Below are positions 33,708 to 59,197 of a stretch of 64,000 bases of DNA, piece after piece. The position numbers and the translations under genes are program-made. Position 1 is the first letter of the stretch. Every line of letters begins with the position of its first letter. The stretch lies in NCBI RefSeq assembly GCF_015265455.1, contig NZ_CP054492.1:2232001-2296000 (forward strand), written 5' to 3'. The DNA is from Candidatus Sulfurimonas baltica. Lineage in GTDB: Bacteria; Campylobacterota; Campylobacteria; Campylobacterales; Sulfurimonadaceae. The notes beneath the pieces are model-generated. The model saw nothing but the letters and a program-made list of their open reading frames with translations. It had not been told where the DNA came from and made no database searches.

Positions 33708-34079
33708 ATGTTTAAAATATTATTTTCTCCCGCCGAAGGAAAAATAAGCGGAGGCAGAGAAAATGCAAAAGAGTTGCTCGGTTCAAATAGTGCTAGAGAA
33801 AATATTTTACATGAATATAACAACATTCTTAAATGTGGTGATGAAGAAACCATAAAAGAGCTATTTGGATTTAAAAAGTTTAGTGACTGTGAACCTTACA
33901 TAACTGATATATTTAATTCGCCACTTATGAGTGCAGTTGAGAGATATCAAGGTGTAGCTTATGAGTATCTTGATTTTGATTCGCTCGATAAGAATGGACA
34001 AGAGTACACAAAGTCAAACACAATAATTTTTTCAAACCTTTATGGCCCCATACTTGGCGGCGATACAAACTATATATAA
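33708..34079 (+). pseudogene. yaaA: 5' half of chromosomal yaaA, interrupted by the integrated element
   Basis: The frame gives MFKILFSPAEGK at the start and SNLYGPILGGDTNYI at the end. It aligns with the N-terminal half of the intact YaaA at 39899-40642 but is clearly divergent. Codons 1-120 are chromosomal; the last few after the AACTATA core come from the element and reach a stop at once. Joined at the core to the fragment at 62828-63190, it restores a 240-codon gene. YaaA (DUF328) lowers intracellular iron during peroxide stress in E. coli. The fragment lacks the C-terminal half and is unlikely to work. Confidence 0.93.
34068..34074 (+). other. attL core (AACTATA)
   Basis: Left copy of the 7-bp core, preceded by chromosomal GGCGGCGATAC in the yaaA frame and followed by element sequence TATAAATAATAATTG. 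Confidence 0.85.
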
Positions 34080-34191
34080 ATAATAATTGAATTAATAAAT
34101 TCTCAAATAACTTATTTACTGTAATTATACATTATAGTTCTTTAAGGTAAAAGAAAGATTTTAATAGATAATATTTTAACTATATATAAAT
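34068..34191 (+). repeat. Left-end direct repeat of the element
   Basis: AACTATATATAAAT occurs at 34068-34081 and again at 34178-34191, 110 bp apart, flanking the leader of the recombinase operon. The right end has the inverted form CTATATATAGT at 62804-62814. These are candidate recombinase arm-binding sites. Confidence 0.6.
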
Positions 34192-35569: not shown

Positions 35570-36153
35570 AAAATGGTGACTTAAGATCTCAAAATGATAA
35601 TTCTAAAGAATACAGAGAAAAGAAAGCAAAACAAACAGAATCTTTACTAAAAAAGACACTATCTTATGTAAATGATTCAGATAAAAACTTTTCGCATAAG
35701 AATATTTGTGAAGTAATGGTAAGTATAGCTGATGAAGAAGACAGAAAGTTAAAGGCAGCAATTTCGCCTTCTGCAATTTCAAAGAATTTACATCTGAAAA
35801 ATATAATTGAAATATATAAGACACAAAATAACATCTTAAAACAAAAACAAAAAAAATATCATCTCTCCGAAGGAGATATGGCTTTTGAACTCCACAAATG
35901 TAAAACTATATTAGCTCAAAAAAGTGATGAAGTTAAATTATTAAAAGATATTATTAAAAAAGAAAAAATCACAGTTGAAAATCCAGTAATAAAAATTACA
36001 AATGAAGATTTTGATTATAAGCACTTATTGAAAAAAGCTTATGAAATAATGAGCAAAGAGAGTGTTACTTATATCTCAGGTGGGAATTTAATTCTAGAGA
36101 TAGATCATTCAATTGTGGCAAATAAAAAATTATTGATAGAGTTAGGATTGTGA
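35563..36153 (+). CDS. Small accessory protein of the recombinase trio
   Basis: 196 residues, overlapping the genes on both sides (7 bp and 4 bp). The N-terminal third is Lys-rich and includes a possible DNA-binding segment around NICEVMVSIADEEDRK. The middle (ILKQKQKKYHLSEGDM and the KSDEVKLLKDIIKKEK stretch) should form a coiled coil. I recognise no named domain. By position it corresponds to the small third partner in three-gene recombinase modules, such as Tn554 TnpC or the small gamma-mobile-trio protein, but homology is not shown. Its probable job is helping synapsis or directing recombination. Confidence 0.8.
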   Translation: MVKNGDLRSQNDNSKEYREKKAKQTESLLKKTLSYVNDSDKNFSHKNICEVMVSIADEEDRKLKAAISPSAISKNLHLKNIIEIYKTQNNILKQKQKKYHLSEGDMAFELHKCKTILAQKSDEVKLLKDIIKKEKITVENPVIKITNEDFDYKHLLKKAYEIMSKESVTYISGGNLILEIDHSIVANKKLLIELGL

Positions 36154-39100
36154 TGAAAATACATGGATTTAGCAAGGAAGAAAAGCTAGAATACCTTGAT
36201 AAAGTAATTATAGACTTAAAAAAAGAAAGCTATAAAAGTGTTTCAAACAAGGAGATAATAGATAGGTTTAAAAAATATGGAGTATTTTTAAAAAGTACGG
36301 AATTTAGCAAACTTCATATTAGGCAGTCATTGATTCAACACAACATTACCCCTACTAATTTAAGTGCAGAAGAAAAGCAGTTTTATTTCAAACAGCTATT
36401 GCAAGAGCTAATTGATCAAGGAGCTGATATATTGACTAATAGTGAATTAATTAAAAAAATGTACGATAACTATAAAGTTAAAATATCTGAAATTGAAATT
36501 CCAAGATTAGAATTTCGAAAATTATTAGATGAAAATAATATATACACTACGAAATCAAAAAACCATGTTAAAGACATTATAGACAAAACAATTATAAATA
36601 TTTTAGAAAATGAAAATGAAATAGAAATAGAAATAAATAATGTATCACAGTTTCATAAATATGCTGAGCAATTTGGAAATGTTTCTAGAGGGAGCATAGA
36701 TAATAATATAGATTATATTCAGCAAAAAATAGATATTAAAAATATTAAATCGACAAAGCGAATTGAAGCACAGGAAATGAGTGATGAAGAAATCATTATC
36801 ATAGCTGCAAAATATTACACTAAAAAAAATGTTTACCGTATTACTGCAGCCGAAATAAGAAGTTTCACTAATAGTAGATTTAGAACTGTAAATATTGAAG
36901 TAATTAGGGAATATGCAAGTTTTCTGAAAGAGAAATATGATATTGAATTAGTTGGCCAAAATACCAGTATTGATGAAAATATAAAACAAAATGTAGATGA
37001 AATAGTTGCTTTTCTAAGAGAAACAAAAAGAAGATATAATGTATCAGAACTTGATAATATAGATAAAGTGAATGACATAGATGATTCGTTTATAGTTAAT
37101 AAATCTCTAGAGACCGACCTTACAAAGCAATGGGAGTTATATCTCAATGACTATATTATATGGCTGGCGGAGTCAAGAATTAATGTTAAAAATGGATTAT
37201 TGAGTGAATCCAATGAACTTAAAATAGATACCGAAAAAAAGAAGCTGTTAACTCTAACTCATACAGATCTGGATATTAAGAAAATGAATTTTTCTGATAT
37301 CGTGCTTTTAACACAAATTAAGAATAAAGCAAGCCATAAGGCATATGGTGTTCATATGCAAAATATGTACATTGGATTTTTACTTTTTCTCCACGCAAAA
37401 AATAAAATTATTTTTCCATTTTCTTATGTATTTGATGTCTGTTATAGTGAGCGGAAAGTACAGTCTGAACTTCCATATTACTTATCCGACAATTCAATTA
37501 ACAAAAATTTGATGGATTCAATACAGGAAAATAGATTAAGTATTAAAGATGACAAATACAAACGTATTTTTCAATTTTTTCTTTTATCATTACCTCGAAA
37601 TTTTTCTGTAAAGAAGATAGAATATAAGCACTTAGTACCCTTGTTAAATAGAAATAAAAATGATTTTAAGCGTGTAAGTGAAATTTTAAATACACTTGGC
37701 GCGAATGTTGTAGATGAAAAACCAAGATTTAAATATGTAGATAGATATATCAAATATACAAAAATAGAAAAATATAAAAAGTTGGTTGAGATTTTTAATC
37801 AAGCGATGAATCGTGTTTATAAGTCAGGAGGTTATTCAAAAGAAAAAAGTGTTTATAAAAATTGGTCAAGTTCATATGCAGACTTTTTTGACTTCTTAGA
37901 GTCAAATTATCAGAATGAGACTTTTTCAGAAAGTTTTTTATATAAAATTTTTGATTATTTAGATGAAGAAAATATCCTTACATATCAAGAATATATTCAA
38001 AATTTAAAAGTTTCTCAAAATACGAAAGCTAGGAAGCTTACACCATTGATTGTCGCTTTCTCAGGAGATTGCCCCTATAAATCCTTAGGAAAGCTAAAGG
38101 ACAATAATCCAGTTTTTTACAATACAAGTGAAAAGAATGATACTCTTAAAAAGAGAGGAGCTATTAAAAGTTTTGTCGCATTAGCAAAAATAGAAGATAT
38201 TTTAAGGAATAGACCTCCAAAAAGTGAATATTATAAAAAACTAAATATAGATAGTAAATATACTGATTGGTGGGAACACTATAATGTTGTCGTACCATTT
38301 GAGCCACTGATTCTTTTAATGCATCTTTATATTCCTGCTCGTGGAATTAACTTTAGGCTCGCAGATCGTAATACATTTTTAGTAAAAAATGAATCTGGAA
38401 ATATTAGTGGTTATCATTTCACTCATGACAAAAATAAAAAACGAAAGACTCCTTATATAGCACCAAATATTTGGGGAGATGATTTGAAAATTATTGAAGA
38501 TTTTGTTGAGTACACCAAGGTGCATTTTCCTAATCAAAAAGCAATTAAATATGATAAACAAAATCCAAATGGTATAGTCCCACTTTTTCCAAATGCCAAA
38601 GGAACTAGCTTTTATACTGAAGGTCAGCATATGAGCTACTGGAAGCGTGTTTTGTTAAAAGCACAAATTGAATTAAATAGTGAGGGCAATACGGAAAATA
38701 TTATTTTAATTTATTCAAAAAAATCTGATTTAGAATTACCAAAAGAATCTTCAGAAGTTGATAATTTATCACAAGCTTATATGGATAATTTCGATGTGAG
38801 ATACGACTTGCACTCTTTACGACATACAGGGGCAACTAGATATGCGAATGCAGGTATGCCATTAGGACTATTAAAGTTGCTCACTGGACATATTGACTTA
38901 AATGTTCTTCAATTAGTTTACATTGAAATAGATACAGATAAGATGATTCGAGTATGGAATGAGTTGCAAGATATAGACCTTGGAGGATTAGGACTAGCAG
39001 ATGCTGGAAGTAAATTAATTAATCATATTAAAAAAGTAACGAACAAGATGTTGCAAGAAAATAATCCTGAGCAACTATTAGAATTTTTAAAACAAGGAAA

Positions 39101-39902
39101 GTTTCTTACGATAGGTTCTTATCTAAGTAAAGATGAGCTAACTCTGTATACGATGGAAGATATTTCTAAAATAGAGGCTGTATTTTGGCGCTTTCCAAGA
39201 GGTGGAATTTGTACATCATCTTCATGCCCTCAAGGCTTAGAAATGCGTTGTAGTTTATGCCCTCATTTTATTACTTCTCCTGCTTATATGCATGAAATTG
39301 CTGCTTTAATAAACTTACAAAGTGAAAAACTGTGTAAGCATATAAATAGGGTGATTGAAAATCGAGAAAATGGTAATCAAGAAAACAATGAGTCCATTAG
39401 GATATCTGCGCAAATAGATTTAGAAGAAATGTTGGGCTGGGGTAAACTAATTCAAGCTCTGGATGAAATAAGAGTAGTAGATGACAATGAACAAAATATA
39501 GAAACTCCCTCCACTTCAGTTGGTACTGGCATTACTCAAGAAGCACTTTACAGGCGAGCACCAATTGTAAATAGTGACCATTTTTTACTTAAACTAGTAT
39601 ATGATGGCTTGGCTTTAAAACAGTTTGATCATGAAAGTATGCAAGATGCTTCACAAGCATTAATTACGAAATTAATTAGATATGCTGCTAGAAATGGTAA
39701 GTTTTCTGAAATAGATGGAAAAGATAAATATGAAATGCTTGAATGGTTCAAACCAGTCTACAATGAAGTGTTACTTTTAGAAAAAGATGCGTATTCTCAA
39801 GAAAAATTATCTAATATTTTAAGTCTATTATCTGATAAAGCAGTCATTGACTCATTAGAATGCAGTAGCACAAAACAATTGACATACAAGGAAGATGAAT
39901 GA
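36150..39902 (+). CDS. Very large tyrosine recombinase with N-terminal repeats and C-terminal Cys cluster
   Basis: 1250 residues starting at GTG-ATG, overlapping the previous gene by ATGA. The catalytic part is near residues 730-930: an Arg in PARGINFRLADR, H888 and R891 in DLHSLRHTGATR, H914 in LTGHIDLN and Y924 in LVYIEID. After it comes a possible zinc site with CTSSSC and CSLCPH. The N-terminal 400 residues contain at least two related helical segments (KEIIDRFKKYGV and SELIKKMYDNYKV contexts), which look like repeated DNA-binding modules. The yaaA copy overlaps its stop by 4 bp. It is probably the second active recombinase of the trio. Confidence 0.87.
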   Translation: MMKIHGFSKEEKLEYLDKVIIDLKKESYKSVSNKEIIDRFKKYGVFLKSTEFSKLHIRQSLIQHNITPTNLSAEEKQFYFKQLLQELIDQGADILTNSELIKKMYDNYKVKISEIEIPRLEFRKLLDENNIYTTKSKNHVKDIIDKTIINILENENEIEIEINNVSQFHKYAEQFGNVSRGSIDNNIDYIQQKIDIKNIKSTKRIEAQEMSDEEIIIIAAKYYTKKNVYRITAAEIRSFTNSRFRTVNIEVIREYASFLKEKYDIELVGQNTSIDENIKQNVDEIVAFLRETKRRYNVSELDNIDKVNDIDDSFIVNKSLETDLTKQWELYLNDYIIWLAESRINVKNGLLSESNELKIDTEKKKLLTLTHTDLDIKKMNFSDIVLLTQIKNKASHKAYGVHMQNMYIGFLLFLHAKNKIIFPFSYVFDVCYSERKVQSELPYYLSDNSINKNLMDSIQENRLSIKDDKYKRIFQFFLLSLPRNFSVKKIEYKHLVPLLNRNKNDFKRVSEILNTLGANVVDEKPRFKYVDRYIKYTKIEKYKKLVEIFNQAMNRVYKSGGYSKEKSVYKNWSSSYADFFDFLESNYQNETFSESFLYKIFDYLDEENILTYQEYIQNLKVSQNTKARKLTPLIVAFSGDCPYKSLGKLKDNNPVFYNTSEKNDTLKKRGAIKSFVALAKIEDILRNRPPKSEYYKKLNIDSKYTDWWEHYNVVVPFEPLILLMHLYIPARGINFRLADRNTFLVKNESGNISGYHFTHDKNKKRKTPYIAPNIWGDDLKIIEDFVEYTKVHFPNQKAIKYDKQNPNGIVPLFPNAKGTSFYTEGQHMSYWKRVLLKAQIELNSEGNTENIILIYSKKSDLELPKESSEVDNLSQAYMDNFDVRYDLHSLRHTGATRYANAGMPLGLLKLLTGHIDLNVLQLVYIEIDTDKMIRVWNELQDIDLGGLGLADAGSKLINHIKKVTNKMLQENNPEQLLEFLKQGKFLTIGSYLSKDELTLYTMEDISKIEAVFWRFPRGGICTSSSCPQGLEMRCSLCPHFITSPAYMHEIAALINLQSEKLCKHINRVIENRENGNQENNESIRISAQIDLEEMLGWGKLIQALDEIRVVDDNEQNIETPSTSVGTGITQEALYRRAPIVNSDHFLLKLVYDGLALKQFDHESMQDASQALITKLIRYAARNGKFSEIDGKDKYEMLEWFKPVYNEVLLLEKDAYSQEKLSNILSLLSDKAVIDSLECSSTKQLTYKEDE

Positions 39903-40642
39903 AAATATTATTTTCACCAGCGGAAACAAAAAAAGTCGGTGGTATTAAAGGAAATATAGAAAGTGAATGCTTTTTATTTCCCAAATTATTTGGTTTTAGA
40001 AAAGAAGTTTTAGATAGGTATCAAGGATATGTAAGTTCTGTAACAGATGAGCAACTTAGTAAATTTTTTGGAATAAAAGACTCTGCAAAGTTTGAAAAGT
40101 ATAAAACAGATATTTATAGTCAGCCTCTAATGAAAGTTATTGAAAGATACGATGGAGTTGCTTTCGATTATCTAGAATATAGTTCGCTAGATGATGCAGC
40201 TAAACAGTATATTGATCAAAATACAGTGATTTTTTCAAACTTATTTGGGCCAATGTTGGCGGGCGATTTTGGATTGCCTGAGTATAAATTGAAACAAGGT
40301 GAAAAAATTGGTGATTTTGCACCAGAAGTTTTTTATAAAAAACATTTCTCTGAAAGCCTAGATGAAATGTTGAGTGATGAAGTATATCTAGATTTAAGAG
40401 CAGGATTTTATAATAAATTTTATAAGCCTAGGACACAGTATGTTACATTAAAATTTTTAAAAGATGATAAGGTTGTGAGCCATTGGGCAAAGGCTTATCG
40501 TGGACTAGTATTAAAAGAGATGGCTCAAAATAAAATTCAATCTATTGATGAGTTTATGAAAATGGAAATAGAAAATTTATCTGTACAAGAAATTCTCAAA
40601 AAAGGCATCCATACGGAAATAGTTTTCAATATCACTAATTAA
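39899..40642 (+). CDS. yaaA: Complete element-borne YaaA (DUF328) peroxide-resistance protein
   Basis: 247 residues, the normal family length, starting MKILFSPAETKK and ending GIHTEIVFNITN. It contains FSNLFGPMLAGD, LDLRAGFYNKFYKP and HWAKAYRGLVL, conserved in the family. It overlaps the large recombinase by ATGA, so it is translated from the recombinase operon. It is divergent from the split chromosomal copy at both ends and is therefore not a recent duplication of it. It very likely replaces the function lost when the element inserted. YaaA proteins are cytoplasmic, bind DNA and limit Fenton damage in E. coli. Confidence 0.93.
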   Translation: MKILFSPAETKKVGGIKGNIESECFLFPKLFGFRKEVLDRYQGYVSSVTDEQLSKFFGIKDSAKFEKYKTDIYSQPLMKVIERYDGVAFDYLEYSSLDDAAKQYIDQNTVIFSNLFGPMLAGDFGLPEYKLKQGEKIGDFAPEVFYKKHFSESLDEMLSDEVYLDLRAGFYNKFYKPRTQYVTLKFLKDDKVVSHWAKAYRGLVLKEMAQNKIQSIDEFMKMEIENLSVQEILKKGIHTEIVFNITN

Positions 40643-42386: not shown

Positions 42387-42653
42387 ATGCGAAGAAGTAA
42401 GTTTAGTGAGAAACAGATTATAGAGATTCTCAAAGAGATTGAAGATGGTGCAGCAGTTGTAGCAACCTTGAGAGATAAGGGTGTCAGCAAGGACACTTAT
42501 TACAAGTGGAAGCGTAAATACAGTGGTATGGAAACAGGTGATGTGAAGAAGATGAGAGAGCTTGAAAAAGAGAATGCTAAACTGAAAAAGCTTTATGCAG
42601 AGATGGCATTAATGAATGATGCACTTAAAGATGTTATTGAAAAAAAGCTCTAA
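42387..42653 (+). CDS. IS3-family transposase OrfA (helix-turn-helix subunit)
   Basis: 88 residues. MRRSKFSEKQIIEILKEIE and VSKDTYYKWKRKYSGME form the helix-turn-helix, and the end (LEKENAKLKKLYAEMALMND) is the leucine-zipper region. The ATG follows CAGGAG. An AAAAAAG slippery run just before the stop (GAA AAA AAG CTC TAA) is where a -1 shift would make OrfAB. Confidence 0.93.
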   Translation: MRRSKFSEKQIIEILKEIEDGAAVVATLRDKGVSKDTYYKWKRKYSGMETGDVKKMRELEKENAKLKKLYAEMALMNDALKDVIEKKL

Positions 42654-42702
42654 AGCCTGATGAGAAAGAGAGTTAGTTAAACATATAAACATTTATTTTT
42701 CT

Positions 42703-43488
42703 TTGAGTATCAATCAGGCTTGCAAGACATTATCAATAAGTAAATCATCATATTACTATGAGAGAAAAATCAAAGACGATAGTACTGTTGTAGATGCCCT
42801 TAATAAGCTTGTTGAGAAGCATCCAAGGAATGGCTTTTGGCTGCTTTTCAATCGATTGCGCAAGCAAGGCTTTATTTGGAATCATAAACGTGTGTATCGT
42901 GTCTATAAAGCCTTAGGATTGAATTTTAAGAAGAGAACGAAGAAAAGAATACCAGCTAGAGTTCAACATCCCTTACAAGATCTGTTTGATCCTAATGAAC
43001 AGTGGTCGATGGACTTTATGTCTAATAAGCTTTTTGATGGTCGGCGGTATCGTGTTCTAAATATCATGGATGAATTTAATCGTGAGTTTATAGAATTTGA
43101 GGTGGGAACATCTTTACCCTCAAATAAAGTTATTCAAGCCTTGCAAAGAGCCATAGAATTTAGAGGAAAGCCTCAATCAATTAGAGTTGATAATGGTCCA
43201 GAGTTTATTTCTCATAAACTTGAACAGTGGTGCTATATTCACTCCATTGAGCTTAAATTTATTCAGCCTGGATCACCAACACAGAACTCTAGAATGGAGA
43301 GATTAAATGGATCAATGCGAAGAGAGTTTTTTGATGCTTATCTCTTCGATACATTAACAGAAGTGAAAATTATGGCTGATGAGTGGATTTATGATTACAA
43401 TAATCATAGACCACATTCAATTTTAGATAAATTAAGTCCTATTGAATATTTAGATAAGTACAATCTAGAGAAGAATTATTCCGTTTAA
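42703..43488 (+). CDS. IS3-family transposase OrfB (DDE integrase domain), probably uncoupled by a frameshift
   Basis: 261 residues from a TTG; the frame is open from 42664. The DDE catalytic residues sit in WSMDFM, RVDNGPEF and QNSRMERLNGS. After the expected -1 shift the frame reads ALKPDEK and then stops, while the rest of OrfB continues as RELVKH in the next frame. One A appears to be missing near 42667. Without the OrfAB fusion, transposition is probably impaired. Confidence 0.85.
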   Translation: MSINQACKTLSISKSSYYYERKIKDDSTVVDALNKLVEKHPRNGFWLLFNRLRKQGFIWNHKRVYRVYKALGLNFKKRTKKRIPARVQHPLQDLFDPNEQWSMDFMSNKLFDGRRYRVLNIMDEFNREFIEFEVGTSLPSNKVIQALQRAIEFRGKPQSIRVDNGPEFISHKLEQWCYIHSIELKFIQPGSPTQNSRMERLNGSMRREFFDAYLFDTLTEVKIMADEWIYDYNNHRPHSILDKLSPIEYLDKYNLEKNYSV

Positions 43489-45630: not shown

Positions 45631-46866
45631 ATGCTTTTAAAACTTATTTTATTTTTATCATTTTTTTTTATTCTTACTGGATGTAGCTATAAAACAGATG
45701 TTGTGGCTGGTTTTGCTGGTGAAAAAGAAATATTTGTTGGTACATCAGAATGGCCATATGACCCTATAAAAATAACTTTAAGAAAAGAAAATAATTTACA
45801 ATTTAAATGTAATGGTGTTTTTACAAAAGGGAATGATAGGAGTGGAGGTACAATCAATGATGGTAAATTTTATTTAAATTGTATAAATGATTTGAATATT
45901 AATGGTGATTGGTACTCTCCAAGTGGTATGAATAACTTAGTTGCAGATGGCATAAGTAATGATGGCAGGAAATTTCATATGATTGCTGGAACTCAATTAA
46001 ATGTTTTTCCAAGTTTAAGAAGTAAGTTAAATAAGCAAGTTTTTGAATCAGAAAACACTCTAACAACACAAGTTGTAACAATTCAAGCAACCACAAATAA
46101 TACTAATATTATAACACTCCTTCAAGATTCAAAAGCTCATAAAGTAGATAATACAAAATGGCTTTTTATAGTTGGTATAGAAAATTATGAATATACAGAT
46201 TCTGTTATATATTCAAAAAATAGTGCTGAACAAATCAAGGAAGTTATTAAAAAAAGACTTGGAGTACCTGAGCAGAATATCAGGACTCTTATTAATACAA
46301 ATGCAACTAGTGCCAAAATAGATTATAACTTGAAAGATATGCTTAGAAGAGTTAAAAGTGGAGACACTGTTTACTTCTATTACAGCGGGCATGGTATTCC
46401 AGTGCCAACACAAGACAAAGCACCATATATGTTAGCCCAAGATATGAATCCAGCTTATCTAACAGATGATAGATTTAAACTCCAAAACATATACAAAAGC
46501 CTTAGTAATTCAAAAGCAAGTAAAGTTGTAGCTTTTATAGATAGCTGTTTTTCAGGTGGAACAGACAATCAAGCACTTATAAAAGGTGTTGCTGCTACAA
46601 GAATCAAACCTAAAAGTGTGACTTTTGATACAAGCAAAATGGTTGTTATAAGTGCAGGAAGTGGAACTCAATACTCAAATAAATATGATGAAAAGAGCAA
46701 TAGACTTTTTTCTTATTATGTTATGAGAGGATTGATTGAAAACAATTCAAACACTCAAAGATTATATGATTATGTAAAATCAAATGTACAAGAGAAGTCA
46801 TATGAGATGGGTGCAAGTTATGAGCAAGTTCCTGTTTATAGTGGAAATATTGGTTTAGAGCTATAA
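45631..46866 (+). CDS. Exported caspase-like (C14) protease, lipoprotein
   Basis: 411 residues. The signal peptide ends in the lipobox LTGC, so it should be lipid-anchored in the envelope. Residues about 25-150 are a beta-rich domain of unknown type. The rest is a peptidase C14 caspase-like fold, with catalytic H254 in FYYSGHGIPV and C306 in AFIDSCFSGG. The family cleaves after Arg, Lys or Asp depending on the member; the specificity here is not known. It is followed 19 bp later by a second caspase-like gene that shares KGVAATRIKPKSVTFDT, so the two are tandem paralogues. It is first in a four-gene operon. Confidence 0.85.
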   Translation: MLLKLILFLSFFFILTGCSYKTDVVAGFAGEKEIFVGTSEWPYDPIKITLRKENNLQFKCNGVFTKGNDRSGGTINDGKFYLNCINDLNINGDWYSPSGMNNLVADGISNDGRKFHMIAGTQLNVFPSLRSKLNKQVFESENTLTTQVVTIQATTNNTNIITLLQDSKAHKVDNTKWLFIVGIENYEYTDSVIYSKNSAEQIKEVIKKRLGVPEQNIRTLINTNATSAKIDYNLKDMLRRVKSGDTVYFYYSGHGIPVPTQDKAPYMLAQDMNPAYLTDDRFKLQNIYKSLSNSKASKVVAFIDSCFSGGTDNQALIKGVAATRIKPKSVTFDTSKMVVISAGSGTQYSNKYDEKSNRLFSYYVMRGLIENNSNTQRLYDYVKSNVQEKSYEMGASYEQVPVYSGNIGLEL

Positions 46867-46885
46867 TAAATTAAGGAAATATACT

Positions 46886-47968
46886 ATGAAACAAAAAATT
46901 AAAATCTTATTGCTTTTTGTATTATTGCAATTACCAGTTCAGTTATTTGCAGATTATGATTTTTATAATTCTGACATCAATAATTTCATTGGGAGAGGTG
47001 CCTATTTAGAAGATAAAGTGATTGTTAAAAAAAACAGAGCTGGCCTTAGAAATCAAATTATAGCCTATGAAAAATCTAAAACACAAGTAGAAGACAACAA
47101 AACAGATGGTTCTTTAAATCAAAATAAAAGTAGTGAAGTAAAGAATTTACTTGAAAAACATAATGAGTCAATGTACTTTTTTGATGACACATCAGAAAGT
47201 GATAGCATAGCACTATTACTCAAAGAAACAAAACAAAAAAAAGTAAGCTATAAAAGATATTTAATTGTAATTGGTGCTGAAAACTATGAATACACAGATA
47301 ATATAGTTTACTCACAAAACACTGCCCAAATGTTTACAGATGTAGCCCAAAAAACATTAGGAATATCAAAATCAAATACACTTGAACTAACAAGCAAAAA
47401 TGCTTCAATGGGTAGAATTCAAATGAAAATGAAAAAATTACTTAGAAGAGTAAAGCATGGAGACACTGTCTACTTCTATTATAGTGGACATGGGATCCCT
47501 GTTGTTTCACAAAAAAATGAACCTTATATCCTACCAATAGATGTTGAGCCTGAATTTATAAGTGAAGCACCCTTCTTTAAATTACAAAATATTTATAAAA
47601 CACTTGCAGATAGTAAAGCTTCAAAAGTGGTAGCCTTTATAGATAGTTGCTTTAGTGGTGCCACAGATGGAGTAAGTGTCATCAAGGGTGTGGCTGCAAC
47701 AAGAATAAAACCTAAGAGTGTAACTTTTGATACAAAGAAAATGGTTATATTAACAGCAGGTAAAGATAATCAATATTCAAATATGTATGAAGAGAAAAAA
47801 TATAGATTGTTTAGCTATTTTTTAATGGAGTCAATGTTAAAAGGTAGAACAAGTGTAAAAGATATTTATAGTGATGTCTATATCAAAGTTAAAGATAAAT
47901 CCTATGAGATGGGTGATATGAAATTACAAGAACCTACAATGAGTGGAAATAAGGCTATGGAATTTTGA
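46886..47968 (+). CDS. Second exported caspase-like (C14) protease
   Basis: 360 residues with a cleavable signal peptide (MKQKIKILLLFVLLQLPVQL, then FAD) rather than a lipobox. The caspase-like domain has H202 in FYYSGHGIPV and C255 in AFIDSCFSGA, with KGVAATRIKPKSVTFDT as in the upstream paralogue. The N-terminal 110 residues differ and look flexible. It should act in the periplasm. The stop overlaps the next gene by TTGA, showing coupling to the lipoprotein gene. One protease may activate or regulate the other, which is inference. Confidence 0.85.
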   Translation: MKQKIKILLLFVLLQLPVQLFADYDFYNSDINNFIGRGAYLEDKVIVKKNRAGLRNQIIAYEKSKTQVEDNKTDGSLNQNKSSEVKNLLEKHNESMYFFDDTSESDSIALLLKETKQKKVSYKRYLIVIGAENYEYTDNIVYSQNTAQMFTDVAQKTLGISKSNTLELTSKNASMGRIQMKMKKLLRRVKHGDTVYFYYSGHGIPVVSQKNEPYILPIDVEPEFISEAPFFKLQNIYKTLADSKASKVVAFIDSCFSGATDGVSVIKGVAATRIKPKSVTFDTKKMVILTAGKDNQYSNMYEEKKYRLFSYFLMESMLKGRTSVKDIYSDVYIKVKDKSYEMGDMKLQEPTMSGNKAMEF

Positions 47969-49872: not shown

Positions 49873-50439
49873 TTATTGGCTGTTTTTTTTATATTGAGAA
49901 ATATATCTTAGAAGAGTGCTTCTGCCTATATTAAAATAATCTGCGATTTCTTGGTTAGCTACTCCTACATCTTGCATTTTTATCGCTTCAACAACTTTAA
50001 TCATGTCCAATTTAGATTTTCTACCAAATTTAATACCCCTTTTCTTAGCTGAGGCAATGCCTTCGGCTTGTCTTTCTGCTCTTAAATCTGTTTCAAACTC
50101 TGCTACAATTGAGAGTAACCCAATCATGAGTCTGCCGCTACTACTACTTGTATCTATATTCTGTTCAGTAGCTTTAAAAGCAACTTCTTTTGAATTCAGT
50201 TTATCTATGATTTCATATAAGTCTTTAACGCTTCTAGAACATCTATCAAGTCTTGTGACGACAAAAGTATCTCCAATTCGTACAAAGTCTAAAGCATTTT
50301 GTAGTTCTTTTCTACCAACAGATTGAGTGCTAGTAATTTTTTCATGAAATATTTTTTCACATCCTGCTTTTTCTAATAATTCGATTTGTGCTTCTAAGTT
50401 TTGACCAGAACTGCTGACTCTTGCATATCCTATTTTCAT
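49873..50439 (-). CDS. Small serine recombinase (resolvase/invertase family)
   Basis: 188 residues, the normal length. GYARVSSSGQNLEAQ contains nucleophile S9, and TRLDRCSRSV and the AEFETDLRAERQAEGIASAK region are family motifs. A C-terminal helix-turn-helix follows (ANQEIADYFNIGRSTLLRYI). It makes cuts with 2-bp overhangs and resolves or inverts DNA. It is divergent from hsdM across a 194-bp spacer with a 13-bp inverted repeat. Such resolvases next to hsd genes may flip DNA or be remnants of a transposon. Confidence 0.92.
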   Translation of the reverse strand: MKIGYARVSSSGQNLEAQIELLEKAGCEKIFHEKITSTQSVGRKELQNALDFVRIGDTFVVTRLDRCSRSVKDLYEIIDKLNSKEVAFKATEQNIDTSSSSGRLMIGLLSIVAEFETDLRAERQAEGIASAKKRGIKFGRKSKLDMIKVVEAIKMQDVGVANQEIADYFNIGRSTLLRYISQYKKNSQ

Positions 50440-50633: not shown

Positions 50634-52229
50634 ATGCCAGAACAAAAATTCCTCCAAGATCTAGAAAAGAAACTATGGACATCAGCCAACAAGCTACTGC
50701 CATCATTAGATGCAGCTGTGTATAAGCATGTAGTGTTAGGCATGGTATTTGTAAAATATGTATCAGATAGTTTTGAGACAAGAAGACAAGAACTAAAGAC
50801 TGCCTTTGCAGACCCATTAAATGAATATTTCTTAGGTGAAGATGTAGATGATGAGTTCATAAATGAAGAGCTTGAAAACAGAGACTTCTATACTGAGAAG
50901 AATGTGTTCTGGGTGCCACAGGCCGCTAGATGGCATTATCTCCAAGACAACATCAGACTCTCTATGGGTTCACCTATGCCTCTTGGTGGTGAGTTTAAAG
51001 GTGCTGGCAAGCTACTAGATGACACAATGGAACTCATAGAGAAAGAGAATCCAAAGCTAAAGAGAATTCTCAACAAGAACTATGCACAGCTACAGATAGA
51101 ACAAAACAAACTGGCAGACTTGCTAGATCTTATAGCTACTATTCCATTCGCTCATGACACACTAAAAGCTAAAGATATACTAGGTCATGTATATGAGTAT
51201 TTCTTAGGTCAATTTGCAGCGGCTGAGGGAAAAAAAGGTGGGCAGTTCTATACTCCTAAATCTATTGTAAATCTCATTATTGAGATGGTTGAACCATACA
51301 AAGGTCGTATTTATGACCCTGCCATGGGAAGTGGTGGATTTTTTATCTCTAGTGAGAAGTTCATTGAAGCGCACAATGGAAGACTTGGGGATATTTCGGT
51401 TTATGGGCAAGAGTCTAATCCTACTACATGGAGATTAGCGGCTATGAACATGGCGATTCGTGGGATAGATTTTAACTTTGGAAAAGAACCAGCCGATACC
51501 TTTACAAACGACCAACACCCAGACCTAAGAGCTGATTTTGTACTGGCTAATCCTCCATTTAATCAGGATGAGTGGTGGGATGGTAGTTTAGAAGGCGATG
51601 CAAGGTGGAAATATGGAACACCATCAAAAGGTAATGGCAACTATGCTTGGATACAACACATGCTTCACCATACAAGCCCAAATGGAGTTGTAGGTTTAGT
51701 TTTAGCCAATGGCTCACTCAGTTCAAACACTTCTGGCGAAGGGGACATAAGAGCAGCCCTTGTAAAAACAGACATAGTAGAAGCGATAGTAGCTCTTCCA
51801 TCACAACTCTTTGCCAATACACAAATACCAGCTTGTATTTGGATACTCAACCGTAACAAAAAACAAAAAGGCAAAACTCTATTTATAGATGCACGCAATG
51901 TTGGGCACATGGTAGACAGAGCTCAAAAAGCATTTAGTGATGATGACACAAAAGCATTAGCTGATATGTTGCATAAGTTTAGAGCCAACACAGGTTATGA
52001 AGATATAGCAGGAGAGTTTTATGGTGCAACGACTGAAGAGATAGCAAAACAAGAGTTCATCCTAACTCCAGGGCGATATGTGGGAACAGCCGAAGAGGAA
52101 GATGACGGCATCCCATTTGGTGAGAAAATGGCTACACTGACTGCAACTCTGAGTGAGCAGTTTAAAGAATCGGCTAGGCTTGAAGCAATGATAAAAAAGA
52201 ACTTGGCGGGGCTTGGGTATGAAGTCTGA
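50634..52229 (+). CDS. hsdM: Type I restriction-modification DNA methyltransferase subunit HsdM
   Basis: 531 residues. The N-terminal HsdM helical domain starts FLQDLEKKLWTSANKLLPSL. SAM motif DPAMGSGG lies at 228-235, and the catalytic NPPF at 306-309 marks an N6-adenine methyltransferase. It works in an HsdM2-HsdS complex to methylate, and with HsdR2 to cut unmodified DNA. The order hsdM-hsdS-(coiled-coil)-(abi)-hsdR is a type I operon with two inserted accessory genes. hsdS overlaps its end. Confidence 0.96.
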   Translation: MPEQKFLQDLEKKLWTSANKLLPSLDAAVYKHVVLGMVFVKYVSDSFETRRQELKTAFADPLNEYFLGEDVDDEFINEELENRDFYTEKNVFWVPQAARWHYLQDNIRLSMGSPMPLGGEFKGAGKLLDDTMELIEKENPKLKRILNKNYAQLQIEQNKLADLLDLIATIPFAHDTLKAKDILGHVYEYFLGQFAAAEGKKGGQFYTPKSIVNLIIEMVEPYKGRIYDPAMGSGGFFISSEKFIEAHNGRLGDISVYGQESNPTTWRLAAMNMAIRGIDFNFGKEPADTFTNDQHPDLRADFVLANPPFNQDEWWDGSLEGDARWKYGTPSKGNGNYAWIQHMLHHTSPNGVVGLVLANGSLSSNTSGEGDIRAALVKTDIVEAIVALPSQLFANTQIPACIWILNRNKKQKGKTLFIDARNVGHMVDRAQKAFSDDDTKALADMLHKFRANTGYEDIAGEFYGATTEEIAKQEFILTPGRYVGTAEEEDDGIPFGEKMATLTATLSEQFKESARLEAMIKKNLAGLGYEV

Positions 52230-53493
52230 GTGGAACACATATGTGCTAAATGATATTATTGAAATCATAGGTGGTGGAACACCAAAAAGAGCTATTTCCG
52301 AATACTGGGAAGGTAAAATACCCTGGTTATCTGTAGTTGATTTTAATACTGGAAATAAATATGTTTCTGAAACCAAAGAATACATCACAGAACTGGGTCT
52401 ACAAAAGAGTAGTACAAAAATGCTGGAAAAAGGACAGATTATAATATCAGCTAGAGGAACTGTTGGTGCCTTGGCTCAATTGACTCAGCCAATGGCATTC
52501 AATCAGTCCTGTTATGGTTTGAATGCAAAAGCAGAATATACAATCAATGAGTTCTTGTATTATTTAGTTAAGCATCAAATAGCTAATTTACAACAGATTA
52601 CTCATGGGGCTGTATTTGACACAATTACAAAAGACACATTCAAGCAAATAGATGTTTCTTTGCCACCATTAGCAACCCAAAAGAAAATAGCACACATCCT
52701 CTCAACCCTAGATGACAAAATAGAACTCAACCGCAAGATGAACCAGACACTAGAAGAGATGGCTCAGGCACTTTTTAAGTCTTGGTTTGTAGATTTTGAC
52801 CCAGTACATGCAAAAATGGGATGTGCAAATGATGAAGAGCTAGAAGTAGCAGCTCGTGAACTTGGAATATCCAAAGAAGTATTAGAACTATTTCCTAGTG
52901 AGTTTGAAGAGAGTGAGCTTGGGATGATTCCTGAGGGGTGGGACAATGACTTTTTGGATAGCTTTGTAGAAATACTTGACTCAAAACGAATACCTTTGGC
53001 ATCCAATGAAAGAGCAACAAGAAAAGGAAGTATCCCATATTATGGTGCTACTAGCATAATGGATTATGTAGATGATTACATATTTGATGAAACTTTGCTG
53101 TTGATGGGTGAAGATGGTTCAGTTACTAGAGAGAATGGTACCCCTTTTTTACAGTATATATGGGGACAATCATGGGTTAATAATCATGCCCATGTTATGA
53201 GAAGCAAGTCAACACTATCTGTTGAAGCTTTGTATATTGCATTACTAAATAAAAATGTAACCATGTTTGTAACAGGTGCTGTTCAGCCTAAAATCAATCA
53301 GGGTAACTTAAAACAAATACCTATTATTAATGCTGGAGATGTAGTCAATAAAATGTATTCAACTTTAATAGAGCCAATATTTGCAAAAGTTAGATTAATT
53401 ACAGAAGAAAATATAACTCTCCAAAAAACAAGAGACGCACTTCTCCCAAAACTCCTCTCAGGTGAGCTGGATGTTTCAGAGCTAGAGTTATGA
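52219..53493 (+). CDS. hsdS: Type I restriction-modification specificity subunit HsdS
   Basis: 424 residues from the ATG at 52219, overlapping hsdM by 11 bp. There are two target-recognition domains: the first (EIIGGGTPKRAISEYW onward) ends at about residue 160, and the second starts near 240. They are separated by the central helix region LPPLATQKKIAHILSTLDDK. The C-terminal helix KTRDALLPKLLSGELDVSEL mirrors it. It sets the bipartite DNA target, which cannot be predicted here. No internal inverted repeats typical of phase-variable hsdS were noticed. Confidence 0.95.
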   Translation: MKSEWNTYVLNDIIEIIGGGTPKRAISEYWEGKIPWLSVVDFNTGNKYVSETKEYITELGLQKSSTKMLEKGQIIISARGTVGALAQLTQPMAFNQSCYGLNAKAEYTINEFLYYLVKHQIANLQQITHGAVFDTITKDTFKQIDVSLPPLATQKKIAHILSTLDDKIELNRKMNQTLEEMAQALFKSWFVDFDPVHAKMGCANDEELEVAARELGISKEVLELFPSEFEESELGMIPEGWDNDFLDSFVEILDSKRIPLASNERATRKGSIPYYGATSIMDYVDDYIFDETLLLMGEDGSVTRENGTPFLQYIWGQSWVNNHAHVMRSKSTLSVEALYIALLNKNVTMFVTGAVQPKINQGNLKQIPIINAGDVVNKMYSTLIEPIFAKVRLITEENITLQKTRDALLPKLLSGELDVSELEL

Positions 53494-53526
53494 ATTATGT
53501 CATTAAATACTAAGTGAGGAAAAATA

Positions 53527-55008
53527 ATGTCAAGATGGATAGTTAACTTTGATAACGATGTCTTTAAAACGACATGGGAAGATTTAAAAGCTAAGCTTGA
53601 TATAAGCGAAGTTGATGAAACAACAGCAACAAGTGTTGAAGAACTAGCAAGATTAAAAAAGGTCATAGTTTTTATTGATAATGCTTTTGAAGGAATTGAC
53701 CCAGAACTAATACCTGCAAGTTTTATAACTAATTTTAATACACAAACCACAGAATGTAGAAATCAAATCATTAGTTATAACTCAAATAAAAATATTGGTC
53801 ACATAACAAATGCAAATAATAATGCTGATAATTTATTGAGCTATATAAGGCCATATTTACTAAGTCCTGATGCTTTAAAAAAATCTCTTTTGGGGGCTAT
53901 TCGTGCATATGCAAGTGAGATAGATAAACATCTTGGCAAAATTACTGATACAGAAGCAGAGTATAAAAAGGTAAAAAACTTTAGAGAAGAGATTGAAGAG
54001 TATTATGATGTATTGTTTGCAAGTGATGATGAAAATGAATCTATTAAACTACAAATAGCTACTTTACTAGAAGATTCTGAAGAAAAATACAATGCACTTA
54101 ATAAGTTTCATGCTGAAACTTTAGTTGATGGAGTAAATGAATCGACTCAAACAACTATCACAGAAGCAAAAAAAGATATTTTAAGAGATGTAAAAGAAAC
54201 AAATGAAAAGCTAGTTGATGTTTCTGCTAAGATTGAAAAACTAAATAAATTTTATACAAAAATATTTGGTTCAGAAGATGAAAATGGAAAAATAACTGGT
54301 GGATTAGAGAAAGAACTAGAACAAAAAATTAAAGATTTAGAGAGTTTTAAAAGTAAGCAAGAAAAAACTTATAATGAAGAGATGACATCAAGGCTTGAAT
54401 CGTTAAAAAAATATGAACAAGACCAACAGACAAATAATAAAAATTTATATGAACAAATTGAGAGTTTATTACCTGGTGCTACAAGTGCTGGTCTTGCTAA
54501 AGCATATCAAGATATGAAAGAATCCTTTGATAAACCAATTAAGTATTGGAATATTACTTTTATTAGTATTGTTTCAATTATGTTTATCTCTACATTTATT
54601 TCGTTTGTTGATATAGGTATTGTTAAAGATAATACAACAACTTGGTTTGCATTTAAACAAATGGGTGATTTTACAAGTACCCTTAATAGTTTATTATTTA
54701 AATTACCTCTTTATGCTCCTCTTATTTGGTTGGCAATATTTGCTAGTAAACGAAGAAGTGAAAACCAAAGATTGCAACAAGAATATGCTCATAAAGAAGC
54801 ATTGGCAAAATCTTATGTAAGTTATAAAATGCAAATTGATGAGCTGAAACAAGAAGATAAAAAGCTTCTTGAAAAATTATTAGATAGTTCAATAGATACT
54901 GTTGCTCATAATGCAAGTGTAAGTTTGGATCAAAAACATGGAGATTCTACTCCTGTGCAAGAAACAATAAAAATGTTTGTTGAACAAGTAACAAAATTGA
55001 AAGGTTAG
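53527..55008 (+). CDS. Large coiled-coil protein with two membrane helices in the hsd operon
   Basis: 493 residues. A helical N-terminal domain (about 1-150) is followed by a long coiled coil (about 150-320, with many Glu/Lys heptads such as LEKELEQKIKDLESFKSKQE). Two membrane helices follow (about 340-358 and 385-403), then a second short coiled coil (SENQRLQQEYAHKEALAKSY). It has no enzymatic motif. It lies between hsdS and the Abi gene. Coiled-coil membrane proteins in restriction loci may act as phage sensors or membrane effectors, but the role is inference and I recognise no family. Confidence 0.75.
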   Translation: MSRWIVNFDNDVFKTTWEDLKAKLDISEVDETTATSVEELARLKKVIVFIDNAFEGIDPELIPASFITNFNTQTTECRNQIISYNSNKNIGHITNANNNADNLLSYIRPYLLSPDALKKSLLGAIRAYASEIDKHLGKITDTEAEYKKVKNFREEIEEYYDVLFASDDENESIKLQIATLLEDSEEKYNALNKFHAETLVDGVNESTQTTITEAKKDILRDVKETNEKLVDVSAKIEKLNKFYTKIFGSEDENGKITGGLEKELEQKIKDLESFKSKQEKTYNEEMTSRLESLKKYEQDQQTNNKNLYEQIESLLPGATSAGLAKAYQDMKESFDKPIKYWNITFISIVSIMFISTFISFVDIGIVKDNTTTWFAFKQMGDFTSTLNSLLFKLPLYAPLIWLAIFASKRRSENQRLQQEYAHKEALAKSYVSYKMQIDELKQEDKKLLEKLLDSSIDTVAHNASVSLDQKHGDSTPVQETIKMFVEQVTKLKG

Positions 55009-55077
55009 TAGATGATACTAAGAAATTTTAACGAATATTTAAGAACTTTAAGTTATACTAACAGCCACATATCTCCT

Positions 55078-55116
55078 CCACCTCTCTATTTACCAATAGA
55101 AGTGCCAATGAGGGGG
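55078..55116 (+). promoter_or_regulatory. Hairpin that sequesters the Shine-Dalgarno of the abi gene
   Basis: CCACCTC (55078-55084) pairs with GAGGGGG (55110-55116), which is itself the RBS five bases before the ATG. An inner stem TCTATT-TACC-AATAGA (55085-55100) supports it. CTCCTCC upstream (55073-55079) could pair alternatively with the RBS. This suggests translational repression of the toxin-like protein or a small antitoxin RNA. Confidence 0.6.
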
Positions 55117-55121
55117 TCTTT

Positions 55122-56123
55122 ATGCTAATCCCAGAACTTCAAAAAATCAAAAATAATCTTAATACATATACTAAACCACATCTAAGCTTTGAAGAACAAT
55201 TAAAAAGATTAAAATCTAATGGTCTAATTATATCCAACTCTTCGTATGCACGAAAAAAATTAACTCATATTAATTACTACCGATTGAGTTCCTATTTTTT
55301 AACCTTTCAATATCCAAAGAACAGCACTAAAGTAAACCAGTTTTACCCTCAATCAGAATTTAGACATATCACAAGACTGTACGACTTTGATGTAAAGTTT
55401 CGTCGCTTACTGTTTGGTGCTATGGAAACTATTGAGGTTTATATTAGAACTCAAATAGCATATCACCACAGTGCAAAATATGAGGCTTTTGGTTATATTT
55501 CACATAAAAACTTTCAATGTAGTGAAGCTGTTTTTGAAGAACTACTTGAAGATGTAAAAAAAGAGAGTGAACGGTCTGATGAAAAATTTATTAAACACTT
55601 TAAAGACAAGTATGGAGCCACAGATTTGCCAATATGGAGCATAGTGGAAGTCCTTTCTTTTGGTACTCTTTCTAAGATATTCTATGCCATGCACAATGAG
55701 GATAAAAAACTAGTTATTGAACAAATACCTGTTACAACTACAGTTTTTTCTAAATGGTTACACTCTCTTACTATTTTAAGAAATATATGTGCACACCATT
55801 CACGAGCTTGGAATAGAGAACTTCGTGTGCCCTTTGCTATACCATCAAACAATAGTATGTTTGATCCATTACGAAAAATAACAAAATCAAAATTTAAAGC
55901 AGAAGTTGACGGCGAATTTATATACGAAGATAAGGAATATGATAATAATAACTCAATATTTTTTGGCTTAAGTGTTATTAAATACATCTTTGATAGTATT
56001 GGTGAAGAAGTTGACTTTGTATCTGAAATTAAGCAATTGCTAAAATCGTATCCAGAAATTGATTTAAAGGCTATGGGATATGTCGATGGATGGCAAAATT
56101 TAGATATTTGGAGCGATGTATGA
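55122..56123 (+). CDS. AbiD/AbiF-type HEPN abortive-infection protein
   Basis: 333 residues. The family signature is visible in [31 protein letters not shown] and [20 protein letters not shown]. The HEPN ribonuclease motif R-x4-H occurs at R220-H225 ([13 protein letters not shown]). Such proteins are RNA-cleaving toxins that stop infected cells; AbiF has been linked to the ancestry of Cas13 and to small RNA antitoxins. It is the fourth gene of the hsd operon, and its stop overlaps the hsdR ATG (ATGA). The RBS is hidden in a hairpin. Confidence 0.88.
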
Positions 56124-59100
56124 TAAATGAAGACCAAGTAGAACAACTAGCCCTAGAGTGGTTCAAAGAGTTAGGATATGATTACCTTTTAGGCTATGAT
56201 ATAGCTCCAGATAGTAGTGACCCTCAAAGAGGCAACTACCAAGAGGTGCTTTTATCTCACAGACTTCAAACAGCCCTGACAAAGTTAAATCCTAGACTTC
56301 CTATGAGTGCTATAGATGAAGCTATACACCTACTAAAAAAACCACAACACGCAACCCTAATCCAAAACAACAGAGCTTTTCATCAAATGCTACTTCAAGG
56401 TATATCTGTAGAGGTGAAAAATGGGGATGAAGCTAGAGGTGAAGTAGTCAAACTTATAGATTTTCATGATGTAAATGCAAATGACTTCTTAGTGGTAAAC
56501 CAATACACCATTAAAGGTACTAAAGGCAACAGAAGACCTGATCTAGTTGTGTTCATCAATGGACTACCTATATCTGTACTAGAGCTAAAGAATCCAGCAG
56601 ACACCAATGCAGATATTTTCAAAGCATACAATCAACTACAGACATATAAAGATGAGATAGAGGATTTGTTTGTCTATAATGAAGCTTTGGTTGTCAGTGA
56701 TGGAATTAATGCTAGGATTGGCTCACTCACAGCTACGGATGAGCGTTACATGTATTGGCGAACTATTAAAGATGAGACAGATAAGCCACAGCTGGAGTAT
56801 GAGCTAGACACTCTGATAAAAGGCTTTTTCGAGAAAGAGCATATCTTAGACTACATTCAAAGTTTTGTATTATTTGAGGATGATGGCAAGAATATCATCA
56901 AAAAGATTGCAGGGTATCATCAGTTTCATGCAGTGCGAGAAGCTATTCATTCTGTCGTAGAAGCTTCAACTAGTGGAAGCAAGAGAGGTGGTGTTGTTTG
57001 GCATACACAAGGTTCTGGAAAGTCTATAAGTATGGCTTGTTTTGCAGGAAAGCTCACGAAACAGCCTGAAATGAAAAACCCAACACTATTGATTGTTACA
57101 GATAGAAATGATTTAGATGGTCAACTCTATGCTACATTTTCAAGTGCTAAGATGCTGCTAGGTCAAGAACCAATCCAAGTAGACAGTGTCAGTGAACTAC
57201 GAGAGATACTAAAAGACAAACCATCTGGTGGGATTATATTTACTACTATTCAGAAGTTTGGACTCAAAAAAGATGAGAGTAGATTTCCAATTCTTAGCGA
57301 TAGAGATAACATAGTAGTCATTGCTGATGAAGCGCACAGAAGCCAGTATGGATTTGATGCCATGCTAGATAGTGAGACGGGTCAGTTTAAATATGGCTAT
57401 GCTCAACACCTAAGAGATGCCGTACCTAATGCTACATTTATAGGATTTACTGGAACCCCTATTGAGAGTGTAGATAAAGATACAAGAAGTGTATTTGGTG
57501 ATTATATTAGTATCTACGACATCGAGGACGCTGTAAAAGATGGTGCTACGGTTCCAATCTATTATGAGAGCAGACTTGCTAAGCTGGATTTGGATGCAGA
57601 GGTGCTCAAAGAGATTGATGCAGATGTCGGCGAACTCGTAGTTGATGAAGAGTTAAATGATAAAGAGAAGTTTAAGAGCAAGTGGAGCGCATTAGAAAAG
57701 CTTGTTGGTTCTGAACCAAGGATACAACAGATAGCAAAAGACTTAGTGGAACACTTTGAAGATAGAGTTGCCACTATTGACGGCAAAGGTATGATAGTTG
57801 CCATGAGTAGACAGATAGCAGTGGATTTGTATGACGCTATAGTTGCTCTAAGACCACAGTGGCATGACGAAGACCCAACTAAGGGTGCTATTAAAATCAT
57901 TATGACTGGTTCAGCTAGTGATGAAACTAAACTACAAAAACATATCTACTCTAAACAAACGAAGAAAGATTTAGAGAGAAGAATCAAAGACCCTGATGAT
58001 GAATTAAAGCTGGTTATTGTTAGAGATATGTGGCTTACTGGATTTGATGCACCAAGTCTTCACACTATGTACATTGACAAGCCCATGAAGTCTCATAACC
58101 TAATGCAAGCCATAGCGAGAGTCAATCGTGTCTTTAAAGGTAAAAATGGTGGGCTTGTCGTTGATTATATTGGAATTGCTAATGAACTCAAAGCTGCACT
58201 TAAAACCTATACTGGAGCCAATGGTAAAGGCAGTGGAACTGTAGATGTAGCAGAAGCATTTGCTGAGATGTTAAAGAGACTAGATATAGTGAGTAATATG
58301 TACCATGGTTTTGATTATGGAGAATATTCAACCAAAGCACATATGCTATTAGCTCCAGCAGCCAATCATATACTTGGTCTTGAAGATGGTAAGAAAAGAT
58401 ATTTGGACGAAGTACTTGCCCTTACAAAAGCTTTTAGTTTATGTGGAACTTTGGATGAAGCTAAAGAACATAAAGAGGAGATAGCATTCTTTCAGGCTGT
58501 GAAGGCTGTAATACAAAAAATCGGAGTGGTAACAGGTAAGAAAAAAGATACCAATGGAGCCATTAAACAGATAATTGATAATGCTTTAATATCTGAGGGT
58601 GTGGAAGATATATTTTCTCTGGTTGGATTAGAAAAGCCAAATATTGGAATCTTATCTGATGAGTTTTTAGAAGATATCGCTCACATGAAGCACAAGAATC
58701 TTGCTGTAGAGCTGCTAGAAAAACTACTGAGTGACCAGATAAAAGCTCAAAATAGAACCAATGTGGTACAAGAGAAGAAATTTAGCGATAGGCTCAAAGC
58801 TACGCTAAGCAATTATCATAATCGCGCAATAGAGACTGCCAAGGTTATAGAAGAGCTAATACAGATGGCGAAAGATATTGCTGAAGCTGCAAAGCATGGA
58901 GCAGAGCTAGGGCTAAATTTCGATGAACTAGCTTTCTATGATGCACTTGCTGAGAATGAATCGGCACTTCGAGAGATGGGTGATGATATACTCAAGCAGA
59001 TAGCGCAAGAGCTAACTAGTAAGCTCAGAAGCAGCGTAAGTGTGGATTGGCAAAGAAGAGAATCTGTAAGAGCTAAGATGAGAAATATCATACGAATGAT

Positions 59101-59197
59101 ACTCAAGAGGTTTAAATATCCACCAGATAAGACGGCAGAAGCGATGGATTTGGTTATGAAGCAAGCGGAAGTTTTGAGTGATGAGTGGAGTAAGTAG
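56120..59197 (+). CDS. hsdR: Type I restriction enzyme subunit HsdR
   Basis: 1025 residues from the ATG at 56120, overlapping the abi stop by ATGA; an ATG at 56090 inside abi is less likely. The N-terminal nuclease has D141 and E155-K157 ([20 protein letters not shown]). The translocase has Walker A GSGKS ending at K301 (HTQGSGKSI), DEAH at 403-406 and [11 protein letters not shown]. It pumps DNA and cuts at a distance from unmethylated sites. It is the last gene of the operon and appears intact. Confidence 0.96.

Follow-up and report, generated by a model that had tools for sequence, protein, structure and literature searches.

A putatively mobile island that splits yaaA in Candidatus Sulfurimonas baltica carries a divergent complete yaaA, a candidate rescue copy with an extra codon at the crossover site

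Organization of the locus

In a 64,000-nucleotide stretch of the Candidatus Sulfurimonas baltica genome (NZ_CP054492.1, positions 2,232,001 to 2,296,000; hereafter the window, with positions counted from its first letter), the gene yaaA is split at codons 119-120 by a 28.7-kb island (28,748 bp between two 6-bp cores), and the island carries near its left end a complete yaaA of its own, which we call the spare (Table 1). Joining the window flanks with one 6-bp core yields an uninterrupted 242-codon yaaA, and the whole 2.74-Mb single-contig genome contains only three yaaA matches, namely the two halves and the spare. The two ends of the island are alike at 16 of 32 positions, with a common inverted outer ACTATATATA and little beyond, and the left end shares a run of 33 identical bases with the recombinase end of a related island on a Sulfurovum contig (L023). 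The far-end core of the window island looks as if it had been imported from a former site.

Table 1. Features of the island and of the yaaA gene that it splits, in window positions.
Feature	Position	Strand	Remarks
5' part of host yaaA	33708..34061	+	118 codons; open reading frame continues into the island, stop at 34079
attL, 6-bp crossover core GATACA	34062..34067	+	host codons 119-120, Asp-Thr; on the gene A side
Left terminal sequence, 32 bp	34068..34099	+	same 32 bp at the recombinase end of L023 (Sulfurovum)
Gene A, tyrosine recombinase, 453 aa	34208..35569	+	Pfam Phage_integrase, E 8.8e-7
Gene C, small protein, 196 aa	35563..36153	+	no family match
Gene B, large tyrosine recombinase, 1250 aa	36150..39902	+	Pfam Phage_integrase, E 5.1e-6
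Spare (island-borne complete) yaaA, 247 aa	39899..40642	+
Extra Gly codon, spare residue 125	40271..40273	+	place matching the crossover core
Insertion sequence, presumably IS3-type, two open reading frames	42387..43488	+	transposase HTH and rve integrase-core domains
Two caspase-like peptidase genes	45631..47968	+	Pfam Peptidase_C14
Serine resolvase	49873..50439	-
Type I restriction-modification genes hsdM, hsdS, hsdR	50634..59197	+
Abi_2 gene within the hsd region	55122-56123
Right terminal sequence	62784..62815	-	outer ACTATATATA = left end inverted
attR, 6-bp core AGTATC, far end	62816..62821	+	unlike the host core
3' part of host yaaA	62822..63190	+

Four plus-strand open reading frames (ORFs), each overlapping the next, occupy the left end of the island in the order A, C, B and yaaA. 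Tyrosine recombinases are marked by the residues R, H, R, H and Y, which are found in gene A as R218, H367, R370, H406 and Y415 (identical in a two-row alignment) and in gene B as R731, H888, R891, H914 and Y924 (invariant in a three-row alignment); the Pfam score of gene B was 26.8 bits, below the cut-off of 27.1, and its profile also matched XerD (E 0.00032). An R-H-R-Y motif is likewise given for the strand-biased circularizing integrative elements (SEs), whose circular form arises from a single strand and leaves no empty site (PMC9345347). For gene C, Pfam gave no convincing match; our impression is that it is possibly TnpC-like.

Recurrence of the island

Searching 397 genomes of the phylum with gene B, we found nine with a match, the window genome included, and among these the only other island of the same kind was that of genome G276, a 13.9-kb island with the order A, C, B, yaaA lying reversed within a split yaaA, its gene B 34% identical to that of the window over nearly the full length and its gene A 44% identical. 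A first scan of genome contigs, with patterns drawn from the variable N-terminal part, found no further members; a second scan found L023 only, where A, C, B and yaaA lie inside a split yaaA, again reversed, in an island of 12.1 kb. Family searches of 228, 104, 175 and 44 genomes, in sets overlapping the 397, gave 9, 5, 5 and 1 genomes with a gene B match, their new finds of the same kind being two remnants: in G420 a decayed gene B tail is followed by an intact yaaA that is 78% identical to the window spare, and in G494 only the tail of gene B, interrupted by a stop and lying at a contig end, precedes an intact yaaA. Among viral contigs and phages no members were found, and the one find among plasmids, on a Sulfurospirillum plasmid, was a distant relative. 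Because it recurs in other genomes, the four-gene arrangement is not a chance one.

The first-pass annotation of this DNA had placed the complete yaaA as the fourth gene of the recombination operon and had read an ATGA overlap between its start and the stop of the 1250-aa recombinase; the ORF coordinates bear out the overlap, and yaaA comes after the large recombinase gene at five of five junctions (window, G276, L023, G420 and G494), at each of which it overlaps the end of gene B. The shared bases are ATGA in the window, L023 and G420 and amount to a 26-bp overlap in G276 and G494, and GGA precedes the yaaA start at all five; the overlap together with this GGA suggests translational coupling of the spare to gene B.

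The target is yaaA, at the same codon pair, in each of the three islands for which we could see both ends (window, G276 and L023), and the joined flanks give open yaaA frames of 242, 247 and 244 codons, respectively, with the island lying forward in the window and reversed in the other two. The recombinase-end core corresponds to host Asp-X codons in all three, being GATACA in the window, GACGAA in G276 and GACTTG in L023, the latter two islands showing GAY-NNN at the matching core place. The far-end cores, read along yaaA, are foreign: AGTATC, TTTAGA and TGACAT, respectively, so that a target core at the recombinase end is paired with a foreign core at the far end in three of three. We also asked of the far-end core whether it marks a former residence in yaaA; this fits the window only, with yaaA reversed (one of three), and we do not claim it. 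We infer that the island is mobile. In a census of PF03883 over the 397 genomes, 347 had a yaaA match, and yaaA in three pieces was seen only in the window genome (G000) and in G276, both of which hold such islands.

The spare and its crossover site

The spare protein belongs to the YaaA / UPF0246 family (Pfam PF03883, E 9.5e-38, residues 1-231 of 247). Its AlphaFold2 model has a mean predicted local distance difference test (pLDDT) score of 96.1 and matches E. coli YaaA 5caj (E 8.1e-13, template-modelling score 0.74); a sequence search of the spare against solved structures gave no match. The 28 residues that are invariant in 40 chromosomal rows are all kept by all five spares, and the ratio of nonsynonymous to synonymous substitutions (dN/dS) is 0.11-0.14 in three of four spare pairs, with dS near saturation, the fourth pair being saturated. 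The kept invariant residues, the low dN/dS and the intact spare of G420 beside a decayed recombinase argue for a working protein.

In a 45-row alignment of 262 columns, the sole indel column that separates the spares from the 40 chromosomal rows is an extra glycine codon, at the place matching the crossover core. It is present in four of five spares and in none of 54 chromosomal yaaA genes (Fisher p 1.1e-5, the rows not being independent), so that the interval from the SN-x-x-G motif to the following Tyr spans ten residues in 54 of 54 intact chromosomal YaaA and eleven in the four spares, where the added Gly comes after Asp-X (DFGL, DMGI, DFGV and DFGI). In the model, residue 125 (as aligned) lies near the start of strand 124-127, beside the hairpin turn that follows strand 117-120, a place that likely tolerates one added residue. 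Tyrosine recombinases require a core of fixed length. The extra codon would either turn the 6-bp core into one of 9 bp or shift and change the right half-site, and in both cases insertion should stop; with a fixed core length needed and an extra codon at the core, the spare is therefore probably immune to the island's own recombinase. A further yaaA 5' fragment in G494 ends after GATTTTG, before the place of the extra codon can be read.

Ancestry of the spares

We built a tree of 63 rows, comprising the five spares, four split host genes (one of them the G494 5' fragment) and 54 intact chromosomal genes, the last chosen among the census genes not at random but for breadth of families and high scores. 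The split host gene of the window falls among its own genus, that of G276 beside a gene of its own genus and that of L023 among its own family. The spares form two clades, one with the window, G420, L023 and the G494 fragment (100/98) and the other with G276 and G494 (100/98), and the extra Gly codon occurs in both. Because the hosts within each clade are from different families, the islands probably moved between families. The first-pass view that the spare diverges from the chromosomal halves is upheld by its identity to the host yaaA, which is 42% over the 5' half and 61% over the 3' half, and by its grouping with the spares of other islands; nor does the spare branch with the host copy as a recent duplicate, an origin that the identities and the tree together rule out.

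The starred branches of the tree favour two independent origins of the spares, but a single origin was not rejected, either with the crossover site unmasked in 51 of 55 rows (approximately unbiased [AU] test, p 0.053) or with the site cut from all 53 rows (AU p 0.085), and we do not claim two. In G494, a spare-type yaaA 5' part (L127, 1-370) stops at the insertion point, where its contig ends, and by eye another contig end (L097, near 9248) joins a yaaA-like 5' piece to a recombinase tail. Of the chromosomal yaaA genes in the tree, that of G307 (L144, 7629-8372, close to tuf) is most closely related to one of the spare clades, and it stands nearer to that clade than to other genes of its genus; the 16 kb around it gave no match to the A-C-B trio, and this gene is perhaps a spare that took over from the host gene.

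Discussion

We consider it quite probable that a two-recombinase island breaks yaaA and brings with it a rescue yaaA of its own lineage, in most cases altered at the crossover. The two tyrosine recombinases, with the small partner protein, would move the site-specific island by recognising a conserved yaaA codon pair, with insertion in either orientation. The operon would end with the complete yaaA of the island lineage, translated by coupling to the large recombinase, and the cell would thus keep YaaA after its native gene is broken, while the extra in-frame codon found in most spares would block recombinase insertion into the spare itself. From the sequences we infer both that the spare functions as YaaA and that rescue is the reason for its retention.

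Several observations weigh against this explanation. The complete islands found number only three, and three of the five junctions are shown inside yaaA: that of G420 is not, this genome keeping an intact host-type yaaA on another contig, and that of G494 cannot be placed relative to the host yaaA. The far-end cores of the G276 and L023 islands are unlike yaaA codons, and their former sites may have lain outside yaaA. In G494, moreover, the yaaA 5' fragment that groups with the spares stands beside ordinary host genes, and the spare, which adjoins a decayed recombinase tail, is without the extra codon. Since the tests leave room for one common origin of all spares, the extra codon may represent one event and not convergence.

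This last point leads to an alternative that we regard as possible, though doubtful, namely that the extra codon is no adaptation but a scar, or a peculiarity inherited within a single lineage of spares, any protection then coming from ordinary divergence. Imprecise excision could in principle add 3 bp, and both the unrejected single origin and the G494 spare would be in keeping with it; against it, the codon is the only island-specific indel in the 262 columns, sits exactly on the core and is found in both spare clades. The presence of yaaA itself may be explained in other ways. YaaA protects E. coli from peroxide, and the gene might be plain cargo, a peroxide-stress gene captured from the host beside the insertion site, given that recombinases could take up flanking host DNA and that G420 keeps an intact spare together with an intact host yaaA. 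We think this unlikely, the spare lying inside the operon and not at the island end, overlapping gene B in five of five cases and matching the target in three of three. YaaA is also said to bind DNA, and the spare could be a recombination helper in excision or insertion, in the manner of srap in SEs, with its likeness to the target secondary. Such a role would suit its position as the last, overlapping gene of the recombinase operon at all five junctions, and SEs do require their fourth gene (PMC10214605), but the distant trios are not followed by yaaA, the ORFs after gene B differ in the loci read (by eye), the spare matches the target in each of the three islands, and it has stayed intact in G420 where the recombinase has decayed; we hold a helper role to be improbable.

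Carrying a copy of the target gene is an idea already known, and in this respect the first-pass annotation, which took the arrangement to be undescribed, was mistaken. The recA mobile element (RME) of Vibrio cholerae S24 sits in recA and carries a complete divergent recA, for which its authors propose rescue (PMC4405046). In Tn552-II of Staphylococcus aureus, a target-gene-like gene, tgl, forms part of the array tnpABC-tgl, and there too the authors suggest rescue (PMC12486829). A split host gene with a complete divergent copy inside the island is likewise what we found in the window, G276 and L023. Like the window island, RME inserts at one site in a housekeeping gene and occurs in both orientations, and its excision restores the host gene; it differs in gene and host and in having its copy at the end opposite the integrase, outside the integrase operon, and the available text makes no mention of an altered site in the carried recA (PMC4405046). 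Tn552-II resembles the island in placing its target-gene-like gene beside recombinase genes, which the authors liken to those of Tn554, and in importing a core at its right end, but its target is a yolD-like or plasmid gene instead of yaaA, and its tgl retains a 7-bp att copy (i-att2), whereas the site in the island spare is altered (PMC12486829).

The recombination genes themselves recall those of SEs, which were found only in Gammaproteobacteria. SEs encode a pair of tyrosine recombinases, of which the second is very long, in an operon whose gene overlaps suggest translational coupling; their imperfect inverted repeats enclose a 6-bp spacer, and a core is brought along from the former site (PMC9345347, PMC10214605). 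The pairing of a target core at the recombinase end with a foreign core at the far end is the pattern of both SEs (PMC10214605) and Tn554-like elements (PMC12486829), and one SE sits in the promoter of Vibrio harveyi yaaA (PMC9345347). The differences are that the second SE gene, Tfp, has a recombinase fold without catalytic residues and is of about 550 aa or more (subjects of Tfp below 550 aa were filtered out as truncated in the SE survey; PMC9345347, PMC10214605), whereas gene C has 196 aa and no family match, and that the fourth SE gene, by its description, is srap (PMC10214605), where the island has yaaA. Compared with TnpA, TnpB and TnpC of Tn554 by description only, the island has two recombinases and one small protein. 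Gamma-Mobile-Trio (GMT) islands, which reportedly consist of a recombinase, a small protein and a large integrase that move defence cargo, are said to have hosts of another phylum than that of the window island. An NCBIfam search gave no GMT-named match at E up to 10, the presence of GMT models in that library being unconfirmed; GMT islands are mentioned in PMC12715929 and PMC11888443. In the part of the literature covered, we met no element whose copy of its target gene is described as altered at the crossover, and none in which that copy is yaaA; what appears new here is the operon coupling, the recurrence across families and the apparent recoding of the spare.

These data suggest that a gene-breaking element may become harmless, and perhaps hard to lose, by bringing its own copy of the gene, and that a housekeeping gene found complete in a genome may be the property of a mobile island. 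In islands of several bacterial families, the spare stands beside the recombinase, and a small change at the cutting site apparently suffices to keep it safe from the island itself. Engineered gene drives use the same insert-and-rescue logic. We give an even chance to the further proposal that the island is a natural device of this kind, in which the crossover site of the replacement has been changed by one in-frame codon and so could not be attacked, with the host becoming dependent on it once the native halves decay.

Distant relatives, other yaaA copies and cargo

The first-pass expectation that homologues of the large recombinase would neighbour yaaA held among close relatives, with five of five junctions and a matching target in three of three islands, and needs qualifying for distant ones: in the fetched stretches of 14 loci with distant trios (L015-L022 and L098-L103), none had yaaA or an intact comM, and eight (L015, L016, L017, L019, L021, L022, L099 and L103) had comM pieces. 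The two comM pieces around a whole island are clear in L017, the others being mostly partial stretches, and the trios near comM pieces occur in several Campylobacterota families. L017 and L018, both of genome G225, hold related trios with no DNA difference in their first two genes, one copy lying in comM and the other, with a shortened large recombinase, elsewhere; this identity points to recent mobility among these relatives. A longer large recombinase, of 1515-1643 aa, was seen in L021, L100 and G744:C11.

Nine genomes in the census had two yaaA matches, and five were inspected (G038, G092, G247, G258 and G213), leaving out G054, G094, G097 and G100. The second match was short and under the cut-off in G038 and G092; G247 has one yaaA broken into two adjacent pieces, and in G258 both matches are of near full length, one of them containing a stop. 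In G213, yaaA is in two pieces at contig ends (L124 and L125); the genome, if within the 397-genome draw, had no large-recombinase match, and we considered it as a possible case of a split gene without rescue, but the pieces at the contig ends do not meet at the site, and we do not claim it. YaaA matches on plasmids came to four records, at 25-28% identity.

Apart from the operon, the window island carries the cargo listed in Table 1 together with a phosphoesterase-domain protein; several cargo ORFs gave no match. The caspase-like pair, near the type I restriction system and the Abi_2 gene, is possible defence cargo.

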